Assembly: GCF_001634365.1 (NCBI RefSeq)
Contig: NZ_CP014578.1
Location: 744,001 to 808,000, forward strand
DNA from: Paraburkholderia phytofirmans OLGA172
GTDB taxonomy: Bacteria > Pseudomonadota > Gammaproteobacteria > Burkholderiales > Burkholderiaceae
Length of the DNA: 64,000 nt
Direction of reading: 5' to 3'
Positions within the stretch are counted from its first letter, which is position 1. Each line of letters begins with the position of its first letter. Below the pieces are notes generated by a model. That model worked only from the letters and a program-made list of their open reading frames with translations. It searched no databases and was not told where the DNA came from. Below, piece by piece: positions 24,476-33,560 of the stretch. Position numbers and translations under genes: made by a program.

Positions 24476-24964
24476 ATGAGTGAGAAACGAGATTTGCTTA
24501 GCCGGTTGGTGATCGGCCGGAAACGAGATGGTCGTCGTGAATACGACGATGCTGCTCGCGATGAACTTGTGCAGCTTTGTCTGCAGCCTGGCGTCTCCGT
24601 CGCGAGGACTGCAATGGAGCACGAACTCAATCCGAACCTGCTGCGCAGCTGGATCGCGCGGTATCAGAAGAGCCAGGCCCAGGTAGAGCGCGAGAAGGTC
24701 GCCCAAGCGCCGATGGTCGCCGATGGCGTCCCGATCGACCTCTCGGGTACACCGTCGGCATTCGTGCCGGTCGTGTCGACTGCAGATCCGCCGGTGGCAC
24801 TGCCACCAACATCGTCGGCTTCAGTTCCTTCGATGACCCTCTCGTTGCGCGTGCGTCTTTCGAACGGCGTCGAATTCGATGTTGGTGAGGCTAGCATCGA
24901 CGAACTGATCACGGTGATCCACACGCTCGGGAGGATGCCGTGTTCCGGTTCGACAAAGATCTGA
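24476..24964 (+). CDS. tnpA: IS66 TnpA (second element)
   Basis: 162 residues, with an HTH region EYDDAARDELVQLCLQPGVS followed by MEHELNPNLLRSWIARYQ, the TnpA DNA-binding domain. The C-terminal part LRVRLSNGVEFDVGEASIDE is typical. The last codons overlap tnpB by 25 nt, suggesting translational coupling. Confidence 0.9.
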   Translation: MSEKRDLLSRLVIGRKRDGRREYDDAARDELVQLCLQPGVSVARTAMEHELNPNLLRSWIARYQKSQAQVEREKVAQAPMVADGVPIDLSGTPSAFVPVVSTADPPVALPPTSSASVPSMTLSLRVRLSNGVEFDVGEASIDELITVIHTLGRMPCSGSTKI

Positions 24965-25296
24965 AGGTGTACCTGCACCGCGATCCCATCGATTTCCGGG
25001 CCGGCATCAACAGCCTGTCGATACTTGTCGAGCAGGCGATGCGTTTGAATCCAATGTCGTCAGCGCTCTACGTGTTCGGCAACCGGCGTTGCGACAAGAT
25101 CAAGATTCTCGGCTGGAGTGGCAATGGCTTCTGGCTCCTGATGAAAAGACTCGAAGCGAAGGACCATTTCGTCTGGCCTGATAGCAAGACGCAGATCGTA
25201 ACGCTGTCCGTGGAGCAGTTGCATTGGCTTATCGAGGGCATCAACATCACGGCGGTCCAGCGACATCCCAAACGCAACTATGCCCGGGTAAGCTGA
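24940..25296 (+). CDS. tnpB: IS66 TnpB (second element)
   Basis: 118 residues from a GTG with GGGAGG upstream (24929-24934). The sequence MFRFDKDLKVYLHRDPIDFR, with GINSLSILVEQ and YVFGNRRCDKIKILGW, is the canonical IS66 Orf2/TnpB family, of unknown biochemical role but needed for transposition. It is unrelated to the RuvC-like TnpB of IS605 elsewhere in the window. Confidence 0.93.
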   Translation: MFRFDKDLKVYLHRDPIDFRAGINSLSILVEQAMRLNPMSSALYVFGNRRCDKIKILGWSGNGFWLLMKRLEAKDHFVWPDSKTQIVTLSVEQLHWLIEGINITAVQRHPKRNYARVS

Positions 25297-25326
25297 ACAT
25301 GTCATCAGCAGACTGGTCTAAGCGGT

Positions 25327-26907
25327 ATGCCGATCAACGTGACGATCACTGCTGAAGAGCTGAAGCAGTTGCTCGACGAGCGCAACGCCGCTCGTGAACT
25401 CCGGGACGAGCGCGAAGCTTTACGTGGCGAATTGCGCCTTGTGACCGCACAACGCGATCTCGCCGAAGAGCGGCTACGAGCTTATCGGCGTGAACTTTTC
25501 GGCGCGAAGAGCGAAGCGCGCGCCTCTGAGCAGCCCGGTCTGTTCAATGAAGCCGAAGCGCTCGGCACGAACACCACGCCCGCGCAGGAAGATACTCCGG
25601 AAACGAAGGTCGCTGAACACACACGCAAAAAGCGTGGTCACCGCAAACCGCTCGATCCCAATCTGCCCCGCGAGGTCCGTCGTCACGAACTTCCCGAAGC
25701 AGAACGTTTCTGCGCTCACGACGGTCATGCTCTTGTTGAGATCGGTGTCGAGACCAGCGAGCAGCTCGACGTGATCCCGGAACAGGTTCGTGTGGTCCAG
25801 CACCAGCGCGTTAAATACGCGTGCCCGTGCTGCGATCTCGGCATCAAGGTGACGCCGGCGCCGCCGCGGATCATTCCGCGCGGGCTGTTTACCGAATCGG
25901 CCCTTGCGTGGATAGCGGCCGGCAAATATCAGTTCGGCATGCCGATTTACCGTCAGTCGGGCTTGCTGCGCCGCTTCGGCGGCGACATCTCGTCGAACAC
26001 GGTCGCCGCGAGCATGGTCCGGGTTGGTGTGGCTGCACAGCCCGTGATCAACCTGATGCGCGACGCGCTACTTGATGCAGAGGTGATCTACTGCGACGAG
26101 ACAACGTTCCAGGTCCTGAAAGAGAAAGGACGTCGCCCACAAACGAAGAGTTACCTGTGGGCGCAGATGACCGGTTCGGGTATCCCGATACGATGCTTCA
26201 CTTATACACCCGGACGTGGCGGTAAGCTGGCCGACAAACTGTTCGCCGGCATCCGCGAGGGTGCAGTCCTGATGACCGACGGGTATGAACCGTACAACGG
26301 CATCGCGGAGCGCTACCAGCTCGTCCACCTTGGATGCCTGGCTCACGCGAGACGGTACTTCGTCAAGGCAGAGGACAACGTTCCCAAGGCTGCGCGCACG
26401 CCGGATCTGCTTGCGACCCGCTTCATCAAATTATTCGGCAAACTGTTCGCCGCCGAAGCGCGCAGCGAGACGTGGACCGTCGGGCGACGGCAGCGGTTGC
26501 GACGCCGATACAGCGCACACGTGCTCGACGCGATCAAGAAGCTGATGCTCGAACAGCTGCCTGCCGTCCTGCCCAATAGCCTGCTTGGCAAGGCGCTGAA
26601 CTACCTGCGCGGGCAATGGCCGAAGCTCGTTCGCTACGTCGAGAATGGCAGTTGGCCAATATCAAACAATGCCTGCGAAAATTCGATCCGCCCCTTCTGC
26701 CTTGGACGCCGCAGCTGGTTATTTGCTGACACCGTTGACGGTGCCCGTGCAAGCGCGAATCTCTATACCCTGGTCGAATCTGCGAAGGCGAATCAGATCG
26801 ACCCGTATCGATACCTTACCTGGCTATTTACGAAGCTGGCGCTGGCAAAAACCGTCGACGACTACGACGCGCTTCTCCCCTGGAAGATGCCTGCCGAACT
26901 CCGCTGA
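25327..26907 (+). CDS. tnpC: IS66 transposase TnpC (second element)
   Basis: 526 residues. A leucine-rich coiled coil (about 8-60: ELKQLLDERNAARELRDERE) is followed by a zinc-binding segment (KYACPCCDLGIKV), then the DDE_Tnp_IS66 core: VIYCDETTFQVL (Asp), VLMTDGYEPYNG (Asp) and NNACENSIRPFCLGRRSW (Glu). The IS66 C-terminal motif ends the protein. The start follows tnpB by 30 bp. All catalytic positions are present. Confidence 0.95.
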   Translation: MPINVTITAEELKQLLDERNAARELRDEREALRGELRLVTAQRDLAEERLRAYRRELFGAKSEARASEQPGLFNEAEALGTNTTPAQEDTPETKVAEHTRKKRGHRKPLDPNLPREVRRHELPEAERFCAHDGHALVEIGVETSEQLDVIPEQVRVVQHQRVKYACPCCDLGIKVTPAPPRIIPRGLFTESALAWIAAGKYQFGMPIYRQSGLLRRFGGDISSNTVAASMVRVGVAAQPVINLMRDALLDAEVIYCDETTFQVLKEKGRRPQTKSYLWAQMTGSGIPIRCFTYTPGRGGKLADKLFAGIREGAVLMTDGYEPYNGIAERYQLVHLGCLAHARRYFVKAEDNVPKAARTPDLLATRFIKLFGKLFAAEARSETWTVGRRQRLRRRYSAHVLDAIKKLMLEQLPAVLPNSLLGKALNYLRGQWPKLVRYVENGSWPISNNACENSIRPFCLGRRSWLFADTVDGARASANLYTLVESAKANQIDPYRYLTWLFTKLALAKTVDDYDALLPWKMPAELR

Positions 26908-27200
26908 TCCCTGTCACTAACAAATATGACGCGTTCCTCGACGTCACTCTGAGGGGCGTCGTCAATGGACCGCATACGATGTTCGTGCGTATATCTGCCG
27001 TGAGCCGGTCGACATGCGCAAATCCATCGACGGCCTGTCGTATCTGGTCGAACCACTGCTTGCCCAGAACCCTGTCTCCGGCAATCTGTTCGTGTTCGTC
27101 GGGCGCGACCGCTCGAAAGTCAAATGCCTTTACTGGGATCGCACCGGCTTCGCGCTCTGGTACAACTAGCTGGATTCATACTGCAACTCCTATTCGCGGA

Positions 27201-29294
27201 TCAGAGGGTTTTAGATGCTACGCTCGCTTGCGCCGCTTTCGCACGGTTAGTGAGTCGATCCCATCGGCTGCTGTGCTTTATTGGCGGGTTGGAATCCGGG
27301 ACTTCATAGAGAAACGCGTAATCGTTATAGGCGTGTCGTTTGACGAGGCCGTATTCGACCCACCTTGTGAGCGTGACGACGTGAATTCCAAGGCGGGTCG
27401 CAGCTTCCTCCTTCGTCAACATGCCTCGTTCCCGCAATCTATCGCGGCAGGATCGAAGTCCATTTCGCTGTGCGATGTATGAGACGCGCAGTGCGTCGAA
27501 CCGAATGTTGCTCTTACCTGGACGGACACAACCGCCGGGGCGGATACCCCGATCATTAAGGATCTGTGCAATCTGAGAGCACGTATGGTCATCGAGAAGC
27601 TTGTCGATGAGCTCCAGGACCTCTGGCTGGGTTTTGACCTGTTGTGCAGATGTTTTGGGATTCTGCGCCGTGAGCGTTTCAGTCTTGCCGGCCTTGAAGC
27701 GAACGTGAATCTTTGTTGTCCCTTCGTCTGGAAGTTTGACCAGTGTGACGTCCTCGACGACGTAGGCTAGCAGCCGCTTTCGCTCTCGATTCGCCAGCGA
27801 TGGATCACGCCAAAGTGTTTTGAAGTCCGCTGTCATTGCAATGAGCCGGTCGCGGATCGCATCGTCGAGTACGAGACGCTCCTGCTGCTGGCTACGCTCC
27901 CTTTGTTCTCTCGCGTCGGCCAGTATGCGCAGCTTGTCGTTCCATTCTTGCTCGAGGGTGTCGGCGACCAGTCGGTTACTCGGGTCGACCAGCATGTAGC
28001 GCCGTTGCGCAAGATCCGCATCGAACTGGGCGCGTTCGATGGCGCGCAGGCGTAATCGGTCGGCTTCATCGTGACGCGCTTCGATTTCCCTGCGTATCTC
28101 CCATGCCAACTCAACGGCAGCCGGAGTCATCGACGCGACGATCAATGCGCCAACTGCCTCATCAATCGGTGCTCCCGCAATTGACTGGCAGCAAGGTTCT
28201 CCACGAGCGCCTTGTGCTCGATCGCAAACATACCAGGCTTCCTGTCGCCCCCGCCGCGTAGCGTACCGGAGTCGAAGGTGCCGACCACAGCGTCCGCAGA
28301 CGGCGCGTCCCTGCAGTAGAGCAGCTCCCTCGCGAGGTGGCGACGATCGCGCAACTTTGTACCCGCGACCATTCATCTCCAGAACAGCAAGGTTCTGCTG
28401 AAACTGCTCCCAGGTAATGTATCCAGGATGGGCGTCCGGAATGCAAGCAAGCCAGTCATTGCGATCACGCTTTCTCGGCACTTTCCGCCCGTCCGCAAGC
28501 CGGCGATAATGCCGCCGGCCGTAGGCGTAAGCACCTGCGTAGCGCGGATTGTTCAACATCCGAAGTGCCGTCGACGCGGTGAGGTGCTGGAAGACTAAGA
28601 ACTTCGCATTGCGCATGCGGGACGGGAACAGGAGGCCTTCCTTCTTGAAGACCTTGACCGTCTGGCTGGCAGAGCCGACTCGCAAGAATGTCTCGAAGAA
28701 GTAAGTGATGGTCTCTCTGACCTGGGAATCTGGGTCAAGCACTACGTTACCAAGGTCGTCATATACGAAGCCGGTCGGTAGCAGGCACCGATACTCGCCT
28801 CGATTCACCTTGTTCAGAATGCCGCCTCGTAGGCGCGCTTTGAGAACATGGAGCTCAGCTTCACTCATTGTTCCCTTGAGCCCAAGCAGGAGCCGGTCAT
28901 TGAAGCTAGCTGGATCGTATATCCCGTCTTCGTCGAGAATCAGCGTATCAGCGAGCGCGCAGATTTCCAGGAGCCGATGCCAGTCAGCATTGTTTCGGGC
29001 CAGGCGTGACACCTCCAGGCCCATGACGATGCCTGCGCGGCCCATGCCCACGTCAGTGACCAATCGTTGAAACCCCTCCCGCCAGGACGCCGATGCTCCA
29101 GACTCCCCTTGGTCGCTATCGATAGTGACGATCTGCTCGTCACGCCAGCCGAGCGCCGTCGCGCGTCCACGCAGGGCATATTGTCGCTTTGTGCTCTCTA
29201 CGTTCTCGAGGACTTGCCGCATCGACGACTGCCGGACGTAGAGGTAAGCGCTCCGTTCGAGGTGGTGAGGCTGAACTTTAAGGGACGCGTTCAC
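27201..29294 (-). CDS. Large serine recombinase with zinc ribbon and C-terminal HTH
   Basis: 697 residues. The resolvase domain (about 10-150) has YLYVRQSS with the candidate nucleophile Ser and MGLEVSRLARNNADWHRLL. A Recombinase domain follows (about 165-300), then a zinc ribbon with CGRCGRHLRLRY...WYVCDRAQ...CCQS (about 340-390) and a long coiled coil (about 400-500). Unusual is a C-terminal excisionase/MerR-like HTH (about 625-665: MLTKEEAATRLGIHVVTLTR), absent from most large serine integrases. It should catalyse movement of the 27166-30539 element. The start overlaps the upstream gene's stop (ATGA), and the stop lies 35 nt from the element's left end. Confidence 0.9.
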   Translation of the reverse strand: MNASLKVQPHHLERSAYLYVRQSSMRQVLENVESTKRQYALRGRATALGWRDEQIVTIDSDQGESGASASWREGFQRLVTDVGMGRAGIVMGLEVSRLARNNADWHRLLEICALADTLILDEDGIYDPASFNDRLLLGLKGTMSEAELHVLKARLRGGILNKVNRGEYRCLLPTGFVYDDLGNVVLDPDSQVRETITYFFETFLRVGSASQTVKVFKKEGLLFPSRMRNAKFLVFQHLTASTALRMLNNPRYAGAYAYGRRHYRRLADGRKVPRKRDRNDWLACIPDAHPGYITWEQFQQNLAVLEMNGRGYKVARSSPPREGAALLQGRAVCGRCGRHLRLRYATRRGRQEAWYVCDRAQGARGEPCCQSIAGAPIDEAVGALIVASMTPAAVELAWEIRREIEARHDEADRLRLRAIERAQFDADLAQRRYMLVDPSNRLVADTLEQEWNDKLRILADAREQRERSQQQERLVLDDAIRDRLIAMTADFKTLWRDPSLANRERKRLLAYVVEDVTLVKLPDEGTTKIHVRFKAGKTETLTAQNPKTSAQQVKTQPEVLELIDKLLDDHTCSQIAQILNDRGIRPGGCVRPGKSNIRFDALRVSYIAQRNGLRSCRDRLRERGMLTKEEAATRLGIHVVTLTRWVEYGLVKRHAYNDYAFLYEVPDSNPPIKHSSRWDRLTNRAKAAQASVASKTL

Positions 29295-29557
29295 GGTGTT
29301 CTCCGCTCATTGACCGTCACAGCCATGCCTGCGAGTACGTAGATAAAGCCTTGGCGCTCGATGGGCTGAGCGTTCGACGATGACCGAGTAACATTTGGTT
29401 CGGTGGGCGGTGCACGCCCCGGAACCGTCATGCGTGCCCACGCCCACATCCCTCGCGCAAGGAAGACGCTGAGTCCGCGCCGGGCTTCTACAGGCAAGGC
29501 CTGGCCAAGAGCGGCGGAACGCATCACCTCGTATTGCGCGGTGATCGGCGCCGACAC
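29291..29557 (-). CDS. Small protein, recombinase partner (unknown function)
   Basis: 88 residues from a GTG: MSAPITAQYEVMRSAALGQA, then LPVEARRGLSVFLARGMWAW. The N-terminal half is helical and amphipathic; no known domain is recognised. Its stop overlaps the recombinase start by 4 nt, so the two are co-translated. The tight coupling suggests a regulator or cofactor of recombination, but that is inference. No clear ribosome site is visible before the GTG. Confidence 0.65.
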   Translation of the reverse strand: MSAPITAQYEVMRSAALGQALPVEARRGLSVFLARGMWAWARMTVPGRAPPTEPNVTRSSSNAQPIERQGFIYVLAGMAVTVNERRTP

Positions 29558-29583
29558 GGCCGACGGCCAAGCACAGCATCCCG

Positions 29584-30054
29584 CTATTCCACCGTTTTTT
29601 TTACACCGAACGCTCGCTCGATCGTTCTCGGGTGTACATCCAGACCAAATTCTTTGCGAACTAGCTTTGCCAGTTCGCGCGCCCGAAGTGGTTCTCCGGG
29701 CGTGTGTTGTAACTTGAGGAACGCCAACACCTCGCCCTGGATCTTGTGCGGACCGTGCGGCCCTCGCTTCCTCGGAACCAGCCCTGCGATTCCTCCTTGC
29801 TCGAAGTCCGCCCGCGCCTGATAGAAGGTTGGCCGCGAAACACCATATTCGTCGGAGATCTGCGTTATGGAGGCCTTCTCAACAGAAACGCGACGCAACA
29901 TCTCGTACTTGACCTGCACAGCGTCATGGGGATCGAAGAATCCACCCTCTTGGAACTTGGCATCGAGAACGTTCGACGGCGTTGGATTCAGCGTACCGTC
30001 CTCCGCGAGGACATCCGTCTTCGAGCGCTTGCGTTCATTGGGCGGCACATTCAC
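29584..30054 (-). CDS. Helix-turn-helix protein of the serine-recombinase element
   Basis: 156 residues from the ATG at 30054, with GGAG 8 nt before. A homeodomain-like HTH lies at about 55-100 (EMLRRVSVEKASITQISDEY, GVSRPTFYQARADFEQGGI), followed by a winged segment (LRARELAKLVRKEFGLDVHP, RTIERAFG), the two-part paired-type DNA-binding layout of IS630/IS481-type transposases but without a catalytic domain. It probably binds the element ends or its promoter. It is 26 bp upstream of the small gene, same strand. Confidence 0.75.
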   Translation of the reverse strand: MNVPPNERKRSKTDVLAEDGTLNPTPSNVLDAKFQEGGFFDPHDAVQVKYEMLRRVSVEKASITQISDEYGVSRPTFYQARADFEQGGIAGLVPRKRGPHGPHKIQGEVLAFLKLQHTPGEPLRARELAKLVRKEFGLDVHPRTIERAFGVKKTVE

Positions 30055-30228
30055 TCCAAATGGTTGTATCTCACTGTAATTAAATTATGCCGCGAAACAG
30101 GCTTTGTCAAGCTCTAGGACGTTCAGTTTTTGGCATTTAATAAGCCGATCTATGCCCATGTCGTAAGACGTATCCTTGAATTTGGCGGCGTTAATTATCT
30201 TACATGTGCGGCAAAAATCCCTTTACGG

Positions 30229-30573
30229 TCAAGTACCGCTCCCGGCACGCCTGTACGAAAGGCGTCTCACGAGTAGCGCAAGCTCCATCAAGTCGTTGAC
30301 CGTGAACAACGCGCGCTCTCGTCCGATAGAGATCTCGGGATCAGGCACGCTCATATCGGTCCACTTCGGAGGAACGGAGCAATAACTCTTGTCGTCGATG
30401 CGCAGCAGGAGACGTCGGCCAGACCGGTTATAGCGCTCACCGACACAAAGAAGTTGCTGTCCGCTGAACGGGTGGAACGGGTGAGTGATGCGGACAAGAT
30501 GTTCTGTGGCAGCCCCAGAGCCTGCATTTCGAGGTATGTTACAAGCGCCTTGAACGGGGACGCTTTCCATCAC
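30229..30573 (-). CDS. DUF5372-like protein; reading frame crosses the element boundary
   Basis: The core VRITHPFHPFSGQQLLCVGE, YNRSGRRLLLRI, PPKWTDMSVPDPEISIGRER and LFTVNDLMELALLVRRL resembles the short DUF5372 family found next to recombinase genes of this kind; the function is unknown. The only ATG in frame (30573) lies in the host IS66 sequence, 34 bp outside the element; inside the element no ATG/GTG/TTG is in frame before VRITHP. Either the start is non-standard or insertion supplied a new one. It precedes the HTH gene by 174 bp. Confidence 0.6.
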   Translation of the reverse strand: MMESVPVQGACNIPRNAGSGAATEHLVRITHPFHPFSGQQLLCVGERYNRSGRRLLLRIDDKSYCSVPPKWTDMSVPDPEISIGRERALFTVNDLMELALLVRRLSYRRAGSGT

Positions 30574-30755
30574 CGTTAGCGCTCGCGCAACGCGGCTTCA
30601 CGCTCGCCGAACTCAACGCCTGGCTCGAAGGTATTGAGATCCCGGCACGCGAGCCACATCGCGCCGTCGCGGTGACGCGCGTGAGCTGAACTCGCTGTCG
30701 CCTGCGCAGATACAACGCTCCCCCGATCTTGTAAACGTAGCGCGAGTTGGGCATC

Positions 30756-33436: not shown

Positions 33437-33560
33437 TATTCCACGCCAAAGTAAACAGGGATTCCACGGGAAAAAGAACACGAATTCCACGGCAAAGTTA
33501 ATGCCGATTCCACGGCAAAAAGAACAGGGTTTCCACGCCATCGCGAACAGGATTTCGGGG
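33437..33560 (+). repeat. Array of five 22-24-bp direct repeats at the IS21 left end
   Basis: Five imperfect units share the pattern TTCCACGGCAAAAAGAACAG (variants at 33439, 33462, 33486, 33508 and 33531, approximate starts). Such multiple end repeats bind IstA in IS21 elements. Units are adjacent with no spacers, so this is not a CRISPR array. Confidence 0.7.

Follow-up and report, generated by a model that had tools for sequence, protein, structure and literature searches.

A serine-recombinase element of transposase genes with a DUF5372 gene probably split by integration

We analyzed a 64,000-nucleotide stretch of the Paraburkholderia phytofirmans OLGA172 genome (contig NZ_CP014578.1, positions 744,001 to 808,000 of the forward strand), referred to here as the window. 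In it, tnpB of an IS66-type insertion sequence (IS) is interrupted by a compact element with four leftward genes between 27201 and 30543. Comparison with related loci indicates that this is probably a large-serine-recombinase integrating element which inserts into transposase genes and whose DUF5372 gene is split by integration. The locus comprises the following features, given in window positions.

27166..30544, no strand: whole element, delimited by an empty site in the same genome
27161..27165, no strand: left TACAA copy, crossover dinucleotide AA at 27164-27165
30540..30544, no strand: right TACAA copy, crossover dinucleotide AA at 30543-30544
26930..27165, plus strand: 5' part of the host IS66 tnpB, open frame
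30545..30689, plus strand: 3' part of the host IS66 tnpB up to its stop codon
27201..29294, minus strand: serine recombinase, 697 amino acids, with Resolvase, Recombinase and zinc-ribbon domains and a weak C-terminal helix-turn-helix (HTH)
29291..29557, minus strand: small conserved protein of 88 amino acids without known family, overlapping the recombinase start by GTGA
29584..30054, minus strand: HTH protein, 156 amino acids, similar to the HTH region at the N-terminus of IS630/IS481 transposases
30229..30543, minus strand: main portion of DUF5372, beginning with the codon that follows the crossover and including the stop (PF17342, 55.9 bits)

Limits, genes and relatives of the element

An earlier, sequence-only reading of this DNA had proposed an insert in tnpB with base-level limits. 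The insert is real and precise: contig C2 of the same genome carries an uninterrupted, 91-92% identical IS66 tnpB relative (2128527-2128923) in which the counterparts of window positions 27165 and 30545 are neighbors. This empty site sets the limits at 27166-30544, a length of 3,379 bp that includes one TACAA copy. Removal of the insert leaves a tnpB frame open for 126 codons from stop to stop, or 98 from the ATG at 27014, rather than the exactly 115 codons counted before. The 5-bp TACAA, proposed as the sequence shared by both ends, is indeed present twice, but only its AA (TT on the element strand) is kept at fixed positions across relatives.

The four leftward genes were found as described, except that the small gene and the recombinase gene overlap by GTGA and not by ATGA. 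PF00239, PF07508 and PF13408 all match the recombinase above their cut-offs within one protein, and we take its N-terminal YVRQS motif to belong to the serine recombinase family. Among NCBIfam models, XisF and Ccr match it best, but no match comes near the cut-off. In case of the excisionase-like HTH said to be added at the C-terminus, some similarity exists but is faint, with HTH_23 under its cut-off (E 0.002) and a MerR-like PHROG match at E 0.00058. In a domain search, one of the four proteins was a serine recombinase and none a tyrosine recombinase. DUF5372 scores 55.9 bits against PF17342, with a curated cut-off of 25, and its predicted structure is barrel-like; the model reveals no function. 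The small protein contains conserved helical segments.

Using tblastn with the recombinase, matches were obtained in 523 plasmid records, and a profile scan of genome contigs returned at least 549 related stretches. We assembled 88 loci from the best 80 of these stretches, six plasmid loci, the window copy and a second own-genome copy with a 96% identical recombinase protein; L002 was exchanged for a longer stretch of the same copy (OWN2). DUF5372 was detected in 78 of the 88 loci. The DUF5372, HTH and small genes all lie beside the recombinase in 66 of the 76 loci for which 1,350 bases or more are available upstream of it, so that the element definition is not refuted by a lack of conservation of the four genes as a unit, a condition named with the earlier reading. 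Starting instead from DUF5372, the domain was present in 6/150 family genomes and 7/398 phylum genomes, with the own genome and one other in both counts. Nine loci from the family search were fetched, eight of which have a related recombinase adjacent and one the DUF5372 and HTH genes only. Further DUF5372 genes lie next to related recombinases in L118, L119 and L121-L124, where the HTH and small-gene profiles gave no matches; these are possibly reduced versions of the element. Four other loci (L021, L028, L030 and L055) are contigs of 3.38-3.41 kb, nearly exactly one element in length, a size that is expected for collapsed multi-copy repeats with ends at the attachment sites.

The DUF5372 gene and the element ends

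DUF5372 had been taken as an ordinary fourth gene. We found a start for it at the opposite end of the element, so that integration would split the gene.

27166..27179, minus strand: first part of DUF5372, ATG plus 11 bases beyond the recombinase gene at the other element end; in frame with 30543-30229 on joining
27187..27191, minus strand: Shine-Dalgarno sequence AGGAG of this far-end start

In the window, the ATG at 27179-27177 starts 14 bases before the core and 22 bases after the recombinase stop. When the ends are joined at TT, the product begins MNPAS-CNIPRNAGSG... and continues in frame into DUF5372. The junction could be tested in 57 loci, the remaining 31 of 88 having an end that is absent, cut or without start motif. 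In 52 of the 57, TT lies precisely at +14, its distance to THPFHP is exactly 57 bases and the frame is open, and this constancy of the end offsets answers the objection, raised with the sequence-only reading itself, that copies with differing limits would undo the definition of the element. If L008 and L085 are counted, the joined DUF5372 is in frame in 54 of 57. After single-linkage clustering at 90% recombinase identity, every member is in frame in 32 of 35 clusters (binomial P 1.1e-12 against one third). At 70% this applies to 12 of 14 clusters (P 8.2e-5), and at 60% four clusters are left, three of them entirely in frame (P 0.11). Over the 19 codons from core to domain, the DUF frame is open in 52/52 loci, whereas each other frame contains stops in 37/52. 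L116 and L122, both found via DUF5372, also join in frame by eye, with a differing core in L122. The far-end start overlaps the recombinase stop (ATGA or GTGA) in 28/57 loci and lies past it in the window. A Shine-Dalgarno match of at least 4 bases precedes it in 41/57, and one of only 3 bases in the other 16. The in-frame joining places the attachment site of the element (attP) within the DUF5372 gene, with integration separating the start from the remainder.

The two arms of attP form an imperfect inverted repeat, with 11.24 of 24 positions alike on average (shuffled mean 6.16, maximum 7.48) and A15, T17 and C19 invariant on both arms in 33/33 representatives. On the recombinase-end arm, TG occupies the start-codon position in 33/33 (first base A in 23, G in 9 and C in 1), and a near-invariant AxGAG stands further out. 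Neither is mirrored on the other arm, a surplus of the kind expected from a start codon with its ribosome-binding site. The conserved GAGGTGCAGTATG had been considered as purely translational, a reading that was dropped since the arm comparison puts its TGCA in the symmetric recombinase site; only the start-codon TG and AxGAG are therefore credited to translation. An attachment site would account for the conservation at the far end only in part. Frame and TT offsets were free of the score used to select loci, the exceptions being L025 and L044, selected with a TT-containing pattern.

The same gene order, DUF5372-HTH-small-recombinase, is found on plasmid pNGR234a of Sinorhizobium fredii NGR234 (NC_000914.2, 33989-37258). 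There, too, the recombinase-end start is in frame with DUF5372, and the insertion lies in a transposase gene at TPQA/KGRVER (slash, insertion point). It differs in its host IS, ISNCY/IS481-like by motif, and in being annotated as separate genes, which presumably carry the names y4bA-D/y4pH-K. As the annotation of this plasmid is old, the gene set itself has long been public; our literature search found no account of its ends or of the split.

In the own genome, a distant recombinase (34%; L011, contig C2 2280500-2291000) lies within an IS66 tnpC gene. The same Shine-Dalgarno sequence and ATG follow it (GGAGGTGCACAATGAACGG), and upstream there is a DUF5372-like frame (VHYRWHPLYGHHVKV) with no match to the DUF5372 profile. 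The split design may extend well beyond the DUF5372 element family.

Movement, targets and upstream repeats

Two IS66 copies of Mesorhizobium sophorae contain identical elements of 3,401 bp, and the flanks of these copies align over just 20 and 28 bases. An identical 3,388-bp element is present on three contigs of Rhizobium lusitanum P1-7, and the two comparable flanks (L043 and L045, recombinase end) gave no alignment. Identical elements within unlike IS66 copies argue that the element moves by itself. Together with the empty site, the fixed ends and the conserved gene set, this gives good support to the minimal self-moving serine-recombinase unit suggested from the window alone. In L053 and L054, element and flanks are both identical.

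To define the targets, we collected 60 host pieces of at least 25 codons from the recombinase end and scanned 50, the ten left out being mostly repeats of close relatives. IS66 TnpB was matched by 40 of the 50, an rve integrase core by five (with those of L081 and L082 under the Pfam cut-off) and neither at E 0.001 by five. In the host reading frame, a Lys or Asn codon begins with the crossover AA. The IS66 TnpB target, window included, reads K/RLERG. The other targets are DN/AAMESFF and YDN/ASCESF, which we take to be IS3-like, QDK/AKVE, NEK/GKIER, NEK/GRVER and DRK/GRIER, presumably IS21-like, and QAK/GRVER, presumably IS481/ISNCY-like; we assume that these motifs hold the catalytic Glu of DDE transposases. 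L087 and L088 were handled separately since their IS91-type host genes read in the opposite direction, an assignment backed by a Y2_Tnp match for L087. Two flanks do not fit by eye, one at the recombinase end of L029 and the other at the DUF end of L090. In the recombinase tree, all loci not labeled IS66 fall into one supported clade, together with L085 and the long-branch L003; L085 and L066 carry the default label IS66 without support from their flanks. The tree is to be read with the intended outgroup L003 nested on a long branch and with the odd letter make-up of L074 and L080. Inspection by eye places L003 itself, a distant own-genome relative, within IS66 tnpC and close to a CENAIRPF motif.

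Upstream of the HTH gene, the window contains a set of repeats.

30208..30227, minus strand: direct repeat 1, consensus TGTAAGGnnAATTATGCCGC, likely operator
30185..30204, minus strand: direct repeat 2, 23 bp on
30075..30094, plus strand: inverted repeat-like copy found by eye, next to promoter-like TTGACA (30105-30110) and CATAAT (30084-30089); below the motif threshold in the window

Two copies of the 20-bp TGTAAGGnnAATTATGCCGC precede the HTH gene in 35 of 41 representatives, spaced by exactly 23 bp in all 35. An inverted copy closer to the HTH gene is present in 18/41. Shuffled segments gave 0/820. The motif model was trained on the same segments, so that the motif count is partly built in while the spacing is not. 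It was proposed earlier that the HTH and 88-residue proteins control end recognition or direction; this is unsupported by our results, and for the HTH protein a regulatory function in the operon is more likely, with the 23-bp-spaced repeats as its candidate binding sites.

Possible roles and related systems

Ends, targets, movement, the far-end start and its frame come from sequence comparison, from which we infer the circle, transcription across its joined ends and the shut-off of DUF5372 upon integration. The recombinase would join the attP of a circular form to the AA of a conserved Lys or Asn codon in an IS gene. The circle would carry its genes in the order HTH-small-recombinase-DUF5372, transcribed across the joined ends. 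The crossover would fall across codons 5 and 6 of DUF5372, with its start and Shine-Dalgarno sequence staying behind the recombinase gene. Integration would then detach the DUF5372 start, leaving the other three genes whole, and proper synthesis of DUF5372 would require the excised circle. As to its role, we tentatively suggest that DUF5372 acts in the free phase, either as an aid to integration or as a restraint on the recombinase, and that integration itself turns it off. A wider version appears rather doubtful, in which DUF5372 from the free circle licenses or enforces re-integration and is silenced by it, direction being controlled by the position of attP with no separate regulator, throughout a widespread family preying on transposase genes.

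Several observations weigh against a DUF5372 gene that is split and properly made only in the circle. Conservation of the far end is partly that of the symmetric recombinase site, and start-codon conservation is partly built in since the loci were picked by a score including the start motif. L008 and L085 are in frame only after a one-codon offset shift chosen post hoc, and three of the 57 loci are not in frame, namely L048 and L075, which have no resolved core, and L062, which has a damaged end. The ratio of nonsynonymous to synonymous polymorphism (pN/pS) is 0.84 over 18 junction codons versus 0.76 in a shifted control frame, and 1.27 for codons 2-4 versus 0.37 in the domain. Some in-frame start before the domain exists in 41 of 52 integrated copies. 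A joined junction, as circle or tandem copy, was absent from the viral contigs, where five pattern matches were due to chance, and it was spanned by 0/32, 0/18 and 0/3 matching plasmid records. Likewise, a frame across joined ends was not demonstrated in the distant own-genome relative L011. As proof of protein selection over the junction, pN/pS failed, constraint there being weak; this is compatible with a disordered tail (predicted local distance difference test, pLDDT, about 44 in residues 1-10 of DUF5372) and is no proof of translation.

Alternatively, integrated copies might themselves yield DUF5372, with translation beginning at an internal GTG immediately ahead of the domain or at a host start; the joined frame would then be a by-product of constraint on attP. 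Consistent with this, in-frame starts are supplied by the element in 36/52 loci and by the host in 18/52 with enough flank, amino-acid constraint near the junction is weak, and the public annotation of pNGR234a uses an internal GTG. However, just 4 and 3 of the 52, respectively, have such a start with a Shine-Dalgarno match of at least 4 bases, and 11/52 integrated copies have no in-frame ATG, GTG or TTG whatever before the domain. Given further the joined ends in frame in 54/57 and the unmirrored TG and AxGAG, we regard this explanation as improbable. In the window, host GTG/ATG codons at 30573/30570 could yield a fused DUF5372 product, and expression from integrated copies would be expected to be weak and haphazard, yet possible. 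An element that is a dead passenger of IS66 is hardly credible: L053 and L054 look as if co-carried and several copies are truncated, but identical elements in unlike IS66 copies (L022/L068 and L043/L045) contradict it, an empty site is present and several transposase families are targeted.

The remaining alternatives concern function. Split DUF5372 may be made in the circle for its maintenance or transfer, or act on the host, instead of serving integration; we hold this as tentatively as the integration-phase role and consider circle upkeep as likely as the latter. A circle with no known replication genes must persist until integration, a maintenance system on the excising element SXT (PMC2654960) is a precedent, and the barrel-like model is silent on function. 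Family searches for replication, partition and toxin-antitoxin families gave no match among the four proteins, which is weak evidence against such a role. It seems unlikely that the HTH and small proteins set end recognition and direction with DUF5372 incidental, as in the earlier reading. Both genes are retained with the recombinase in the full set of 66/76 loci and the helical segments of the small protein are conserved, but the 23-bp-spaced repeats (35/41) lie upstream of the HTH gene and not at the ends, fitting an operon regulator, and DUF5372 is equally conserved (78/88) and located on attP.

With large-serine-recombinase elements such as phages, integrative and conjugative elements, SCCmec and XisF elements, the family shares Resolvase, Recombinase and zinc-ribbon domains and precise insertion at a short core. 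It differs in its size of 3.4 kb, its lack of recognized cargo, its targets in IS genes and the position of an accessory gene across attP. In a literature search, no description of a DUF5372 element or of the split gene was found, which is no proof of absence. In mycobacteriophage BPs, attP lies in the repressor gene and integration removes the C-terminal end of the repressor, according to passages of PMC4557955. As here, a gene for a protein other than the integrase contains attP and its product is altered by integration; the truncated BPs repressor works in the prophage, whereas DUF5372 loses its start and is expected to be silent. Archaeal suicidal integrases, e.g., that of SSV1, have their gene split by their own integration (passages of PMC8371274). 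They resemble DUF5372 in that a gene crossing the attachment site is split; unlike in SSV1, the recombinase stays intact here, its gene stopping at 27201, short of the attP core (27164-27165). The RIT element of Cupriavidus metallidurans interrupts an IS66 tnpA (passages of PMC2864759) and is likewise a recombinase element in an IS66 gene with ATGA-coupled genes; the same passages give it three tyrosine recombinases and no serine recombinase.

The directionality of serine recombinases is a long-standing question to which DUF5372 elements suggest a simple answer. The family further offers a natural transposon brake and recombinases reading conserved IS-gene codons, with natural sites that can be read from insertions. 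In one clade, these codons lie beside what we take to be the catalytic-glutamate motif of DDE transposases. A true split would further account for the DUF5372 genes that go unnoticed or receive doubtful starts, with the proper one kilobases off.

The surroundings of the element form an IS nest, with a second, apparently complete IS66 gene set (24476-26907) just upstream of the interrupted copy. At 33438-33552, four tandem 23-bp repeats (ATTCCACGGcAAAaagaAcagg-like) lie within an interrupted istA-like frame, just upstream of an open reading frame resembling the start of IS21 istA. They probably represent the multiple terminal repeats that IS21 elements carry.

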